Below, one piece after another: positions 14,071-22,443 of a stretch of 64,000 nt of DNA. The notes under the pieces were generated by a model. That model was not told the origin of the DNA and did not search any database. It was given only the letters and a program-made list of their open reading frames with translations. This DNA is from Acuticoccus mangrovi (GTDB lineage Bacteria; Pseudomonadota; Alphaproteobacteria; Rhizobiales; Amorphaceae), in the NCBI RefSeq assembly GCF_016411865.1, contig NZ_JAEKJA010000005.1, positions 186,001 through 250,000 of the forward strand, written 5' to 3'. Each line of letters opens with the position of its first letter. Within the stretch, counting starts at the first letter, position 1. A program made the translations under genes and the position numbers.

Positions 14071-14997
14071 ATGCGTGCAACGTTCCGGCACATCCAGTTC
14101 CTGAAGACGGCCGTCGAGACGGGCAGCATCACGCAGACGGCGAAGGAGCTGAACGTCTCCCAGCCGGCCGTCAGCCACGCCCTGCGCGAGCTGGAGGCGC
14201 AGCTGGGGCTGACGCTCTTCGTGCGCTCCGCCGGCAGGATCCGGCCGACGGCCGAGGCGCTGGCGCTGCGCGAGGACGCCGACCGCGTGCTCGGAGCCGC
14301 CGCGGGCTTTGCGATCCACGCCGAAGAGTTGCGGACGCAGGCGGGCGGCAACATCGACGTCGCCGCGATCCCGGTCCTGTCGCTCGCGACGATGCCGGCC
14401 GCCGTGGGCCTCCTCAAGGCCGAGATGCCGTTCAGCAGCATCGCCATCCGCAGCATGACGACGGACGACGTCATCAAGCAGGTGGTCACCGAGCGGGCCC
14501 ATCTCGGCTTCGTGGCGCGACCGGTCCAGGAGGCCGGCGTCTCGTTGGAGCCGCTCATGGAGACCGACTTCTGCTGCTTCCTGCCCGAGGGCCACCCGCT
14601 CACGACGCGCGAGTTCGTGCGTAACGAAGACCTCGACCACGAGACGATCATCGCCATCGGCACGGTCAATCCGCCCGGCATCGCCTTCCGCCCCGACGGC
14701 AACGACCATCGCCGCGCCATCACGGTGGAGACCAACAACGCCTTCACGGCCGCCGAGATGGTGCGGCGCGGCGTCGGCGTCGCGGTGATCGATCCCTTGC
14801 CGCTGTGCGACTATCCGGCCGAGGGAATTGCCGTGCGTCCCTTCGTGCCCTCCTTTTCGCTCACGGTGTCGGCGGTCCACTCGCTCCAGCGTCCCCACTC
14901 CAAGCTCGAACGGGCGTTCGTGGAGAAGGTCCGCTCCATCCTGCACAACTATGCGGACATCCTGAACGAGCGCGGGATCTTCGCCCGCAAGCGCTGA
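14071..14997 (+). CDS. LysR-family transcriptional regulator
   Basis: Probable regulator of the heterocycle operon that starts at 15144. The 308-residue protein has an N-terminal winged helix-turn-helix (about residues 5-62, with the recognition helix in NVSQPAVSHALRELE) and a C-terminal substrate-binding-like effector domain. A GTG at 13975 is in frame, but the ATG at 14071 starts right at the HTH and fits the family. It lies on the same strand as the operon, 146 bases away, with a T-N11-A palindrome in the gap. Its effector is unknown; the likely candidate is the imported substrate. Confidence 0.9.
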   Translation: MRATFRHIQFLKTAVETGSITQTAKELNVSQPAVSHALRELEAQLGLTLFVRSAGRIRPTAEALALREDADRVLGAAAGFAIHAEELRTQAGGNIDVAAIPVLSLATMPAAVGLLKAEMPFSSIAIRSMTTDDVIKQVVTERAHLGFVARPVQEAGVSLEPLMETDFCCFLPEGHPLTTREFVRNEDLDHETIIAIGTVNPPGIAFRPDGNDHRRAITVETNNAFTAAEMVRRGVGVAVIDPLPLCDYPAEGIAVRPFVPSFSLTVSAVHSLQRPHSKLERAFVEKVRSILHNYADILNERGIFARKR

Positions 14998-15029
14998 TCC
15001 CGGCGCCTCCGGCATCGCTCGGGCCGCCC

Positions 15030-15044
15030 ATGAGGGACGCTCAT
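15030..15044. promoter_or_regulatory. LysR-type T-N11-A palindrome
   Basis: ATGAGGGACGCTCAT is a perfect inverted repeat with 5-base arms and a 5-base centre, fitting the T-N11-A form of LysR recognition sites. CTCATA occurs inside it and again eight bases later at 15048-15053, resembling a recognition site plus activation site. It lies 99-114 bases before the amidohydrolase start and directly after the LysR gene. Confidence 0.5.
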
Positions 15045-15143
15045 AGGCTCATAAATAACTTTCAATCATTTCGACGGCTTGAACTCGCTACTCTTCTTGT
15101 GCGCCGCAGCAACGGCGTCCGTCCTTCACTATTCGCGAGCCCT

Positions 15144-19997: not shown

Positions 19998-20023
19998 GAC
20001 GCATCTCAATCCGAGGATCCCCC

Positions 20024-21106
20024 GTGCAGCTAGGTGTCTTTCTTCCCATCGCGAACAACGGCTGGATGATCAGCACGAACGCTCCCCAGTTCCTGCCGAC
20101 GTTCGACCTCAACAAGTCCATCGTGCAGTCGGCCGAGCGGTTCGGCTTCGACTTCGCGCTGTCGATGATCAAGCTGCGCGGCTTCGGCGGGCAGACGCGC
20201 TTCTGGGACTTCAGCCTGGAGTCGCTCACCCTGATGGCGGGCCTCGCGTCGGTCACCGAGCGCATCGAGCTGATCGGCTCGGTCCCGGTCCTCGCCATTC
20301 CGCCCGCCATCACGGCGCGCATGGCGACCACCATCGATTCGATCTCGCACGGCCGGTGCGGCATCAACATCGTGTCCGGCTGGCAGAAGGCCGAGTACGA
20401 TCAGATGGGGCTGTGGCCCGGCGCGTCGCACTATGAGCGCCGCTACGCCTATTGCGCCGAGTATGTGTCGATCCTGCGCGAGCTCTGGACCACCGGGCGC
20501 TCCGATTTCCGAGGCGAGTTCTTCGAGATGAACGACTGCCGCATGGAGCCGATGCCGCAAGCCTCGATCCCGATCGTCGGCGCCGGGCAGAGCGATGCCG
20601 GCACCGCCTTCGCGGCGGAGTGCTGCGACTACAACTTCTGCTCCACCTCCGGCGTCAACGCGCCGCAGAGCGTGGCGCCCAAGGTGGCGAAGCTGGTGGC
20701 CGCGGCGGAGGCGATCGGCAGCCCGTGCAAGGCGCTGGTGCTCACGATGGTGGTCGCCGCGGCGACCGACGCCGAGGCCGAGGCGCGCTGGCAAAGCTAC
20801 AGGGACGGTGCCGATGTCGACGCCATGGAGTTCCGCGAGACCCAGAGCAGCCTCGACCCGAACAAGGACGTGAACGCGACGGCCGCGCGCTGGCGGCGCT
20901 CCCAGGCCGAGCATCCGAACACGGGGCAGGGGATCATGATCGGCTCCTACGAGCGCGTGGCGGGCCTCCTCGACGAGCTCGCCGAGATCGAGGGCATCGC
21001 CGGCATCATGCTGAGCTTCGACGATTTTCCGAACGGCATGGAGGCGTTCGGCACCGAGATCCAGCCGCGGATGAAGAGCCGCGCCTCGATCGTCGGCGCG
21101 GCGTGA
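20024..21106 (+). CDS. RutA-like flavin-dependent (pyrimidine) monooxygenase
   Basis: Luciferase-like FMN monooxygenase. RutA opens the uracil ring between N3 and C4 using O2 and reduced FMN. The 360-residue product matches E. coli RutA through nearly its whole length, from IANNGWMISTNAPQ at residue 9, through SMIKLRGFGG (47-56), GWQKAEYDQMGLWPG and AGQSDAG, to LSFDDFPNGMEAFG near the end. The GTG at 20024 has a GAGG box. It overlaps the amidase gene (TGATG). No flavin reductase (rutF) or other rut gene is in the window, so reduced FMN must come from elsewhere. The substrate could be uracil itself or a related ring. Confidence 0.9.
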   Translation: MQLGVFLPIANNGWMISTNAPQFLPTFDLNKSIVQSAERFGFDFALSMIKLRGFGGQTRFWDFSLESLTLMAGLASVTERIELIGSVPVLAIPPAITARMATTIDSISHGRCGINIVSGWQKAEYDQMGLWPGASHYERRYAYCAEYVSILRELWTTGRSDFRGEFFEMNDCRMEPMPQASIPIVGAGQSDAGTAFAAECCDYNFCSTSGVNAPQSVAPKVAKLVAAAEAIGSPCKALVLTMVVAAATDAEAEARWQSYRDGADVDAMEFRETQSSLDPNKDVNATAARWRRSQAEHPNTGQGIMIGSYERVAGLLDELAEIEGIAGIMLSFDDFPNGMEAFGTEIQPRMKSRASIVGAA

Positions 21107-22443
21107 TGGGCGCGGTGGCGACCGGCCCGATCGACCTCGCGCGGCCCGACTGGCTCGCCGGAACGCAGTCGCCGCGGGATCGGCTCGAGCATTATCTCGG
21201 CGTGATCGAGGCGCGCGAGACCGAGGTGAGAGCGTTCTCCGCGCTCAACGTGGAGGGGGCGCGGCAGGCCGCCGACGCGTCGACTGCCCGCTACCGCGCC
21301 GGGCGACCCCTGTCGGGGATCGACGGGCTGGTGATCGGGGTCAAGGACAATCTCGAAACGCTCGACATGCCGACGACTTTCGGCAGTCCGATCTTCGCCG
21401 GCTACCGACCGGAGCGCGACAGCGCGATCGCGTTCGCTCTGCGCAAGGCCGGCGCGGTCGTTCTCGGCAAGACGACGAGCACCGAGTTCGCCTCCAGCCA
21501 CCCCTTTCACGACACCCGCAATCCCCACGATGCGAGCCGCACGCCCGGCGGCTCGTCGAGCGGGTCGGCGGCGGCGGTCGCGGCGGGGATGCTGCCGATC
21601 GCCGTCGGCACACAGGTCATCGGCTCGGTGCTGCGCCCGGCCGGCTTCTGCGGCGTCCTCGGGTTCAAGCCGACCTACGGCGCGCTCAACAAGGGCGGGG
21701 CGAGCGACGCCTACAGCCAGCATACGCTCGGCCTGCTCGCCGCCCACCTCGCCGACATCTGGGCGGTCTGCCACGCGGTGGCGTCGTTCGTCGGCGGCGA
21801 TCCGGGGTTCCCGCCATTCCGCGGTGGCGCGCTGCCGGCCGACGCGCGCCGGCCCGACCGCCTCGCCGTGGTCGAGACCGCGGGCTGGGCCGTCGCCGAG
21901 CCTGGCGCCCGCGAGGCGTTCGAGCGCGCCGTCGAGGCGATCGCGGCGCAGGGCGTGGAGATCGTCCGCCGGGCGGACTGCGCGCGGCTCGATCGGCTGG
22001 AGGAGACCATCGCCGACGCGCGTACGATCTCCCTCGACATCTGCCGCTACGAGGGCCTTTGGCCGTTCTCCGACATGGCGCTCCGGCACCGCGGCCTGAT
22101 GAGCGAATCGATGCGCCACCGCGTCGACGTCGCCGAGGCGATGTCGCCGGACGACTACATCGCCCTGCTCGACAGACGCGAGGCCATGCGCTCGGCGCTT
22201 CTGACGTTGTCGGGCGAGGTCGACGGCTTCCTGACCCTCTCCAACACCGGCCCGGCTCCCGTCGGACTTGCGACGACGGGCAACTCGATCTTCAACGTGC
22301 CCGCCTCGGCGCTGCGCGTTCCGGCGATCTCGCTGCCGCTCCTTCGGGTCGACGGGCTTCCCGTCGGCCTGCAGCTCCTCGGCTTTCCCCATCAGGATCG
22401 GGCCCTGTCGTCGACCGCGGGATGGCTGCTCGGCGCCCTGTGA
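21106..22443 (+). CDS. amidase (amidase-signature family)
   Basis: Ser-cisSer-Lys amidohydrolase, 445 residues. The catalytic Lys is in IGVKDN, the cis-Ser in TPGGSSSGSAAAV, and the nucleophile Ser in GTQVIGSVLRPAGFCG. The usual Asp of GTD is Gln here, as in many family members. It starts one base inside the stop of the RutA-like gene, so the two are coupled. In the Rut pathway the ring-opened product is cut by the unrelated hydrolase RutB; this amidase could play that part, splitting a ureido or amide product. That role is inference. Confidence 0.88.
   Translation: MGAVATGPIDLARPDWLAGTQSPRDRLEHYLGVIEARETEVRAFSALNVEGARQAADASTARYRAGRPLSGIDGLVIGVKDNLETLDMPTTFGSPIFAGYRPERDSAIAFALRKAGAVVLGKTTSTEFASSHPFHDTRNPHDASRTPGGSSSGSAAAVAAGMLPIAVGTQVIGSVLRPAGFCGVLGFKPTYGALNKGGASDAYSQHTLGLLAAHLADIWAVCHAVASFVGGDPGFPPFRGGALPADARRPDRLAVVETAGWAVAEPGAREAFERAVEAIAAQGVEIVRRADCARLDRLEETIADARTISLDICRYEGLWPFSDMALRHRGLMSESMRHRVDVAEAMSPDDYIALLDRREAMRSALLTLSGEVDGFLTLSNTGPAPVGLATTGNSIFNVPASALRVPAISLPLLRVDGLPVGLQLLGFPHQDRALSSTAGWLLGAL

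Follow-up and report, generated by a model that had tools for sequence, protein, structure and literature searches.

A RutA-family monooxygenase gene between an NMT1-type importer and an amidase in Acuticoccus mangrovi: a candidate operon for catabolism of a pyrimidine-like N-heterocycle

In the Rut pathway of Escherichia coli (rutRABCDEFG), whose regulator RutR is of the TetR type, the flavin mononucleotide (FMN)-dependent monooxygenase RutA cleaves the ring amide of uracil at N3-C4, and RutB hydrolyzes the group that is exposed by this cleavage. Ring or bond cleavage via flavin N5-oxide is known for few enzymes, and RutA, DszA and HcbA1 are those named in the accessible text of one study (PMC7662398); the same text states that RutA requires an intact ring amide, that among the listed analogs only 2-thiouracil was turned over, with cytosine yielding flavin N5-oxide without turnover, and that few side chains contact the bound pyrimidine. 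The O2 cavity is described there as lined by L65, V136 and F224; Thr105 and Asn134 are placed at the O2 site, and Trp139 and Glu292 along the substrate side, in the available part of another report (PMC10005588), and mutation of the Asn inactivates RutA according to an excerpt of a third (PMC11134501). Here we analyze a gene string that combines a RutA homolog with a different set of partners, located in a 64-kb stretch (G+C content 70%; hereinafter, the window) of the genome of the alphaproteobacterium Acuticoccus mangrovi (contig NZ_JAEKJA010000005.1, positions 186,001 to 250,000). We assign a probability of about 0.5 to the reading that these genes form a small operon for the catabolism of an amino-substituted, pyrimidine-like N-heterocycle taken up by the cell; in such an operon, import, deamination and RutA-type ring opening would be followed by hydrolysis by an amidase in the place of RutB.

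The string consists of eight genes on the forward strand, in the order LysR-type regulator, metal-dependent amidohydrolase, NMT1-type substrate-binding protein, ATP-binding cassette (ABC) ATPase, two permeases, RutA homolog and amidase. The seven structural genes meet in six junctions, of which four are overlaps of 1 to 4 bases and two leave gaps of 54 and 26 bases; the RutA homolog lies directly between the importer and the amidase, and the amidase gene shares one base with its end. The string, its coordinates and the family assignments, which had first been read from the sequence alone, were all borne out by gene calling and by the Pfam and NCBIfam searches, with the lowest family E-values of the individual proteins ranging from 4.2e-22 (binding protein) to 2.1e-154 (RutA homolog), far beyond chance; the binding protein is adjoined by an ATPase and permeases, the arrangement that identifies an NMT1/THI5 importer. 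Compared with the E. coli operon, the hydrolase gene directly after the flavoenzyme gene encodes an amidase, and there is no RutB beside the RutA homolog; the NMT1 ABC importer and the LysR protein stand in for the RutG-type permease and RutR, which are not in the string; an extra deaminase is present; and no RutC, RutD, RutE or RutF was detected among the eight genes or the downstream genes scanned, of which the pair at 24565-25988 was judged by the sequence start only. By Pfam and NCBIfam, none of the partners belongs to a family related to RutB-RutG, as the sequence-only reading proposed. Its claim that RutB-RutG are missing holds for the string and fails for the window, where a RutB relative of the isochorismatase family is encoded at 31357-31944 (65 bits with the RutB model, cut-off 378), and for the genome, which encodes RutB-, RutC- and RutD-like proteins with an NMT1 importer of their own (see below). 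The gene string is real and appears to be a variant of the Rut-type ring-opening set. Its gene content and gene order, the protein families and the catalytic residues are shown by the data; the bolder parts of this description, namely a single pathway, the order of the steps, the RutA-type chemistry and the substrate class, we infer.

The flavoenzyme matches RutA over its whole length, as had been claimed: the NCBIfam RutA equivalog model TIGR03612 covers residues 2-356 of 360 with a score of 514.3 bits (cut-off 498.3), and RutA is by far the top solved relative (E 1.8e-130), with a dimethylsulfone monooxygenase next (1.4e-29). Assignment to SfnG or to alkanesulfonate- or nitrilotriacetate-type monooxygenases was rejected; the next models score at most 160.5 bits and are all under their cut-offs. 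In an alignment of 103 rows, in which the window protein and E. coli RutA share 52% identity, Asn134 of the O2 pocket and Trp139 of the substrate side are invariant in every row, the window included, and Leu65, Val136 and Phe224 are retained as well.

To place this protein among its relatives, we surveyed 93 loci (the best 80 of 171, 12 fetched regions and the window) that contain 102 RutA-like genes. A gene was considered canonical when RutB is encoded within 1.5 kb and RutD within 4 kb (64 genes), and non-canonical otherwise (38 genes); by this definition, four loci (L050, L068, L069 and L107) are counted as non-canonical although they are of the canonical clade or had earlier been classed as canonical, the RutA of L069 being the same as that of canonical L088, and two others (L095 and L145) are near a contig end. 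The trees sample 61 rows of the 103-row alignment: E. coli, 23 of the 64 canonical loci and, for the remainder, non-canonical or contig-edge sequences. In these trees, a single clade of 27 rows takes in the RutA proteins of canonical rut operons (support 100/99); the window protein groups with five non-canonical proteins (support 97/99). A position beside, not inside, the canonical clade is favored but not proven, because a tree that forces the window and the canonical proteins into one clade, at a cost of 19.7 log units, is not rejected by the approximately unbiased (AU) test (p 0.118). Thus, of the two positions that the sequence-only reading had left to phylogeny, inside or beside characterized RutA, the best tree gives the latter and the AU test leaves the former standing. 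Comparison of ten non-canonical proteins with the RutA model put nine of them (51-60% identical to the window protein) over the cut-off and one (42%) under it.

All 69 canonical rows (the 64 loci, L050, L069, L072, L107 and E. coli) carry Thr at position 105. The window protein has Ser there, as do 24 of the 32 other non-canonical rows, a count that leaves out the distant L114 protein. T105S, T108V, L135I, T137S and P142A, all beside the oxygen pocket, are common to the window and most non-canonical rows, and the first four of these could serve as a testable marker. Glu292 was rejected as a marker, since this position, occupied by Thr in the window protein, is variable across the family. Nine substitutions in the window protein fall at positions that are elsewhere at least 97% conserved.

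An amidase-family gene is located within 3 kb of 14 of the 38 non-canonical RutA genes, that of the window included, and of none of the 64 canonical ones (14/34 for the non-canonical genes when the four misplaced canonical-type loci are excluded), and the Fisher p value of 1.6e-7 for this difference is too small because the copies are related, partly tandem and not independent. The trait changes at least seven times on the tree. In the amidase tree, which leaves aside four Methylobacterium amidases and the second one of L040 (seen by tblastn only), the amidases near RutA homologs stem from several lineages, and a single RutA-linked group that would include the window amidase by common descent was rejected. 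This is the pattern to be expected if a RutA homolog that lacks RutB recruits an amidase, and we read it as repeated, independent recruitment where RutB is absent. The non-canonical loci of Methylobacterium, Kaistia, Lichenifustis and a Rhodobacterales bacterium resemble the window in having an amidase gene no more than 3 kb away, neither RutB (to 1.5 kb) nor RutD (to 4 kb) in the vicinity and, in several cases, an ABC importer nearby; they differ in the importer families and amidase lineages and in that no amidohydrolase with the GCDNCS motif of the window protein was seen beside them, Kaistia having an amidohydrolase at 26% identity.

The window amidase carries Lys80, a GGSSSGS stretch at 148-154 and Ser174, which we take to provide the catalytic Lys/Ser/Ser residues. 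A precedent for exchange between an amidase and a RutB-family enzyme is biuret hydrolysis, for which one organism uses BiuH, of the RutB family, and another uses the amidase AtzE, according to the accessible part of PMC5806882. s-Triazine/cyanurate catabolism (AtzA family, AtzE, BiuH), as outlined there, is similar to the putative pathway of the window in combining an amidohydrolase of the AtzA fold with an amidase-family hydrolase that acts on the ring-opened product; it differs in that AtzD opens the ring hydrolytically, with no oxidative flavoenzyme. The window amidase also matches chain 6te4 (E 8.3e-11), a protein derived from N-carbamoylputrescine amidohydrolases in the available excerpt of PMC12283126, which also hints at a capacity of the amidase fold to act on ureido compounds.

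An ATPase resembling that of the window is encoded within 6 kb of 15 of the 38 non-canonical RutA genes vs 7 of the 64 canonical ones, and a RutG-like gene within 8 kb in only two of the 64 canonical loci. The binding proteins near non-canonical RutA belong to SBP_bac_8 or SBP_bac_6 (L028, L030), SBP_bac_5 (L096) and Peripla_BP_4 (L108); an NMT1 binding protein, as in the window, is found near the RutA homolog of L143, with a similar string in L144. In these two loci (genomes G574 and G651), the RutA homolog is divergent from a phytanoyl-CoA dioxygenase-family gene and the NMT1 importer. The window is not unique in having an NMT1 importer next to rut genes: in Marinomonas balearica (L098, 10001-17696), an NMT1-type ABC importer follows a canonical rut cluster and may replace RutG. 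Another locus (L113, G014:C34, 7771-12351) contains four tandem RutA homologs followed by a flavin-reductase-cluster gene, with an amidase and an asparaginase-family gene nearby.

The importer-deaminase half of the string recurs elsewhere with other partners. The metal site of the amidohydrolase is complete, as had been claimed: His67, His69, His241, His281 and Asp332 are the same in all 18 amidohydrolases aligned, and so is Glu244, presumably with the role of the HxxE glutamate of COG0402-type deaminases. A Foldseek search with the AlphaFold model (predicted local distance difference test, pLDDT, 88.4) returned AtzA, adenosine deaminase homologs, the isocytosine deaminase Vcz and TrzN as top folds, with guanine deaminases lower; the top-ranked folds are amino- or chlorohydrolases of N-heterocycles. 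No NCBIfam model among the best 25 of 48 exceeds its cut-off. The 8-oxoguanine/isocytosine deaminases (PRK08203, Vcz), which rank high in the NCBIfam, PDB sequence and fold searches, share the fold and the metal site with the window protein; the latter scores 175 bits with the 8-oxoguanine deaminase model PRK08203 (cut-off 532), is 24-25% identical to Vcz, and has Asn after the metal Asp where these enzymes carry Gly (the Gly as given in the accessible text of PMC6186785), so its substrate may differ. That text also states that Vcz and its kin convert isocytosine to uracil and do not use cytosine.

The five closest relatives of the amidohydrolase (L146 to L150, 36-40% identity) all have the GCDNCS motif, and an ATPase and a permease like those of the window importer adjoin all six members of this subtype, the window included. 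A binding protein that matches that of the window (E 1.4e-9 to 2.7e-5) is encoded in the same string in L146, L147, L148 and L150 and about 6.7 kb away in L149; those of L147 and L149 are NMT1 by Pfam. These strings share with the window the importer type and the deaminase subtype, and differ in having a molybdenum hydroxylase where the window has RutA and the amidase: xanthine dehydrogenase-type genes are present in all five, as judged by Pfam in L147 and L150, by cluster membership in L146 and L148, and by the sequence start only in L149. The combination of an NMT1-type importer, a GCDNCS amidohydrolase and xanthine dehydrogenase-type subunits is itself a recurrent string (L146, L147, L148 and L150), so that the importer-deaminase half of the window probably acts on N-heterocycles elsewhere as well, the strongest pointer to the substrate. 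Outside the GCDNCS group, the link is much weaker, with a binding-protein match in three, and an ATPase match in three others, of 15 more distant loci read with flanks of about 1.5 kb. The binding protein has a weak model (pLDDT 69.7), the matches of which include formylaminopyrimidine-binding protein, Thi5, TauA and SsuA, and this fold search gave no lead on the ligand.

Under the catabolic-operon reading, the NMT1-type importer would take up the compound, and the amidohydrolase would hydrolytically remove an exocyclic amino (or similar) group to yield a cyclic amide, that is, an oxo ring. The RutA-family enzyme, supplied with reduced FMN by a reductase encoded elsewhere, would form a flavin N5-peroxide and cleave the ring amide as RutA does in uracil; the amidase would hydrolyze the exposed ureido or amide group, the task of RutB in the Rut pathway; and the LysR protein would sense the substrate or an intermediate. 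Placement of a deaminase ahead of RutA, proposed already on the sequence, makes chemical sense because RutA needs an intact ring amide and does not turn over cytosine (PMC7662398, accessible text). Isocytosine and similar 2-amino-oxopyrimidines, or else a different ring of the 2-amino-oxo type, would be the most probable substrates, and cytosine a less likely one. More broadly, we tentatively suggest that RutA of the rut operons is one specialized branch within a larger family of flavoenzymes that open ring amides oxidatively and are lumped together by the NCBI model, and that the window operon could be among several undescribed pathways of this family and act on a heterocycle distinct from uracil and thymine; an amidase would here replace RutB, and a dedicated importer and deaminase would precede the ring opening. 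If non-canonical RutA relatives indeed open other rings, the loci with defined importers and amidases would be starting points in the search for their substrates, and automatic annotation as "pyrimidine utilization protein A" would need narrowing.

Several observations, in addition to the AU test and the non-independence of the RutA-amidase copies, weigh against this interpretation. The RutA cut-off is exceeded by only 16 bits, and the branch of the window protein is long (0.82). No amidase is found near 24 of the 38 non-canonical RutA genes. The string includes no flavin reductase gene. The model of the binding protein fits sulfonate/taurine binders about as well as pyrimidine binders. The nearest relatives of the window amidase (45-58% identity) have a RutA homolog in none of 15 regions, of which 12-19 kb each were read, so that the function of the window amidase need not be tied to RutA; in two of these regions (L193, L195), an ATPase and a permease like those of the window are about 6 kb away. 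Above all, the complete string was found in no other genome searched. These searches covered 60 relatives, the best 80 of 171 loci, 385 genomes of the class with RutA, the amidase (best 15 regions) and the binding protein as queries, and 297 genomes of the order and 398 of the phylum with the amidohydrolase; they sample groups, overlap, use strict E-value limits and score only some candidates per genome, such that a distant copy could be missed. A conserved seven-gene system was accordingly rejected; loss of the linkage is among the results that the sequence-only reading had named in advance as a refutation. The recurrence of pairs of genes softens this verdict: both halves of the string, the amidase with non-canonical RutA and the importer with the GCDNCS deaminase, are found elsewhere. 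Among 10 genomes of the same family, a RutA homolog over the cut-off is present only in this one and in one congener; in a plasmid search, the amidohydrolase had no match, and all 65 records found with RutA were below 60% identity. No description of a RutA-amidase operon was found among the titles and abstract openings listed from the searched literature, mostly without subscription journals, which is weak evidence of novelty.

A serious rival, albeit an unlikely one in our estimate, is a split Rut pathway, in which the string would feed uracil, made from cytosine or isocytosine, to RutA, the resulting ureidoacrylate would be handled by RutB-, RutC- and RutD-like proteins encoded elsewhere, and the amidase would act on something else. 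A separate cluster of the same genome (L225, G000:C2:224000-243500, 6308-10844, reverse strand) indeed contains NMT1 importer genes interleaved with genes for a RutB-like protein (342 bits, cut-off 378), a RutC-like protein (144, cut-off 169) and RutD (250.5, over the cut-off of 238.5). The genome-wide RutA search placed no RutA homolog there, which makes it a rut-like set that lacks the first enzyme and whose products could serve the window RutA in trans, a further point against the operon as a self-contained pathway. Genome-wide, RutB, RutF and PreA had no match over the cut-off (six RutF-like genes all fall short of it), a result that we also count in favor of the operon reading. By this one test for PreA, no reductive route for uracil was seen, and the amidase subfamily occurs without RutA elsewhere; both points suit the split pathway. 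Against the split stand the one-base overlap of the RutA and amidase genes, the location of RutA and RutB/C/D on different contigs with separate importers, and the presence in the genome of two further RutA homologs over the cut-off, either of which could partner RutB/C/D. These two are both on contig C19, within 3 kb of one amidase gene; their locus (L108, G000:C19:93000-112999) also encodes a carbon-nitrogen hydrolase, an M20 peptidase-family protein and a Peripla_BP_4 importer.

Also doubtful, to a similar degree, is the possibility that the RutA homolog opens another cyclic amide, an imide or a fused ring (hydantoin, lactam, purine- or pterin-derived), in which case this would be a ring-opening pathway but not one for pyrimidines. 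The position of the window protein in the best tree, the substitutions next to the oxygen pocket that it shares with most non-canonical rows and its nine changes at otherwise conserved positions are all compatible with such a shift, as are the xanthine dehydrogenase-type genes in the strings of the deaminase kin and the ATP-dependent hydantoinase/lactamase-type genes 5-9 kb downstream of the string. However, with so few side-chain contacts to the bound pyrimidine (PMC7662398, in part), the sequence says little on specificity either way, and the AU test leaves room for kinship with canonical RutA. That the importer-deaminase module and the RutA-amidase pair adjoin by chance or serve different substrates appears improbable: the uniqueness of the complete set among the genomes searched, the molybdenum-hydroxylase partners of the module in the five nearest relatives and the 15 of 15 amidase regions devoid of RutA speak for it, but the genes lie on the same strand with overlaps or gaps of 26-54 bases throughout, RutA sits between the importer and the amidase, and importers of several kinds flank RutA homologs elsewhere.

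Table 1. Genes of the RutA-amidase string and their coordinates in the 64-kb window
Gene product	Coordinates	Strand	Domains and models
LysR-type regulator	14071..14997	+	Pfam PF00126 (HTH_1), PF03466 (LysR_substrate)
COG0402-like metal-dependent amidohydrolase, deaminase type, GCDNCSCSD motif	15144..16667	+	Amidohydro_1
NMT1/THI5-type ABC substrate-binding protein	16664..17638	+	NMT1, NMT1_2 (PF09084/PF13379)
ABC transporter ATPase, taurine/nitrate type, TTG start	17693..18457	+	ABC_tran
ABC transporter permease 1	18454..19245	+	BPD_transp_1
ABC transporter permease 2	19242..19997	+	BPD_transp_1
RutA-family FMN-dependent monooxygenase, GTG start, Ser at RutA position 105	20024..21106	+	Bac_luciferase, TIGR03612
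Amidase-signature hydrolase	21106..22443	+	Amidase (PF01425)

The amidohydrolase gene has an alternative in-frame start further upstream, at 15030. The LysR protein, which is probably the regulator of the adjoining genes, scores 174 bits with its top NCBIfam model, below the cut-off of 288. Upstream of the string are genes that we take to be those of lipid A synthesis, with names assigned from the sequence start and the gene order, and the Rfam and tRNA scans of the 64-kb window found nothing. Downstream, on the opposite strand, leuD and leuC (22456-24497) score as ordinary 3-isopropylmalate dehydratase. They and the lyase at 26653 were considered as possible downstream pathway steps because a RutA-amidase locus, L046, has similar genes nearby: in L046 (10001-17566) and in the window (20024-27552), a RutA homolog and an amidase are followed within kilobases by leuD/leuC-like and phosphoenolpyruvate (PEP) mutase-like genes, which may be chance. 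A second catabolic-looking string on the forward strand (26653-31944) encodes a PEP mutase/isocitrate lyase family protein, hydantoinase B/A-type subunits, for which the closest NCBIfam model is caprolactamase, under its cut-off, and the isochorismatase-family hydrolase mentioned above. Elsewhere on the contig of the window, a further locus (L226, G000:C45:130000-149500, 4983-8879) contains a BiuH gene that exceeds the cut-off of 370 with a score of 428 bits, along with another BiuH-like gene and one for formamidase, an assemblage that, judging by these family assignments, is predicted to function in biuret-type nitrogen catabolism.

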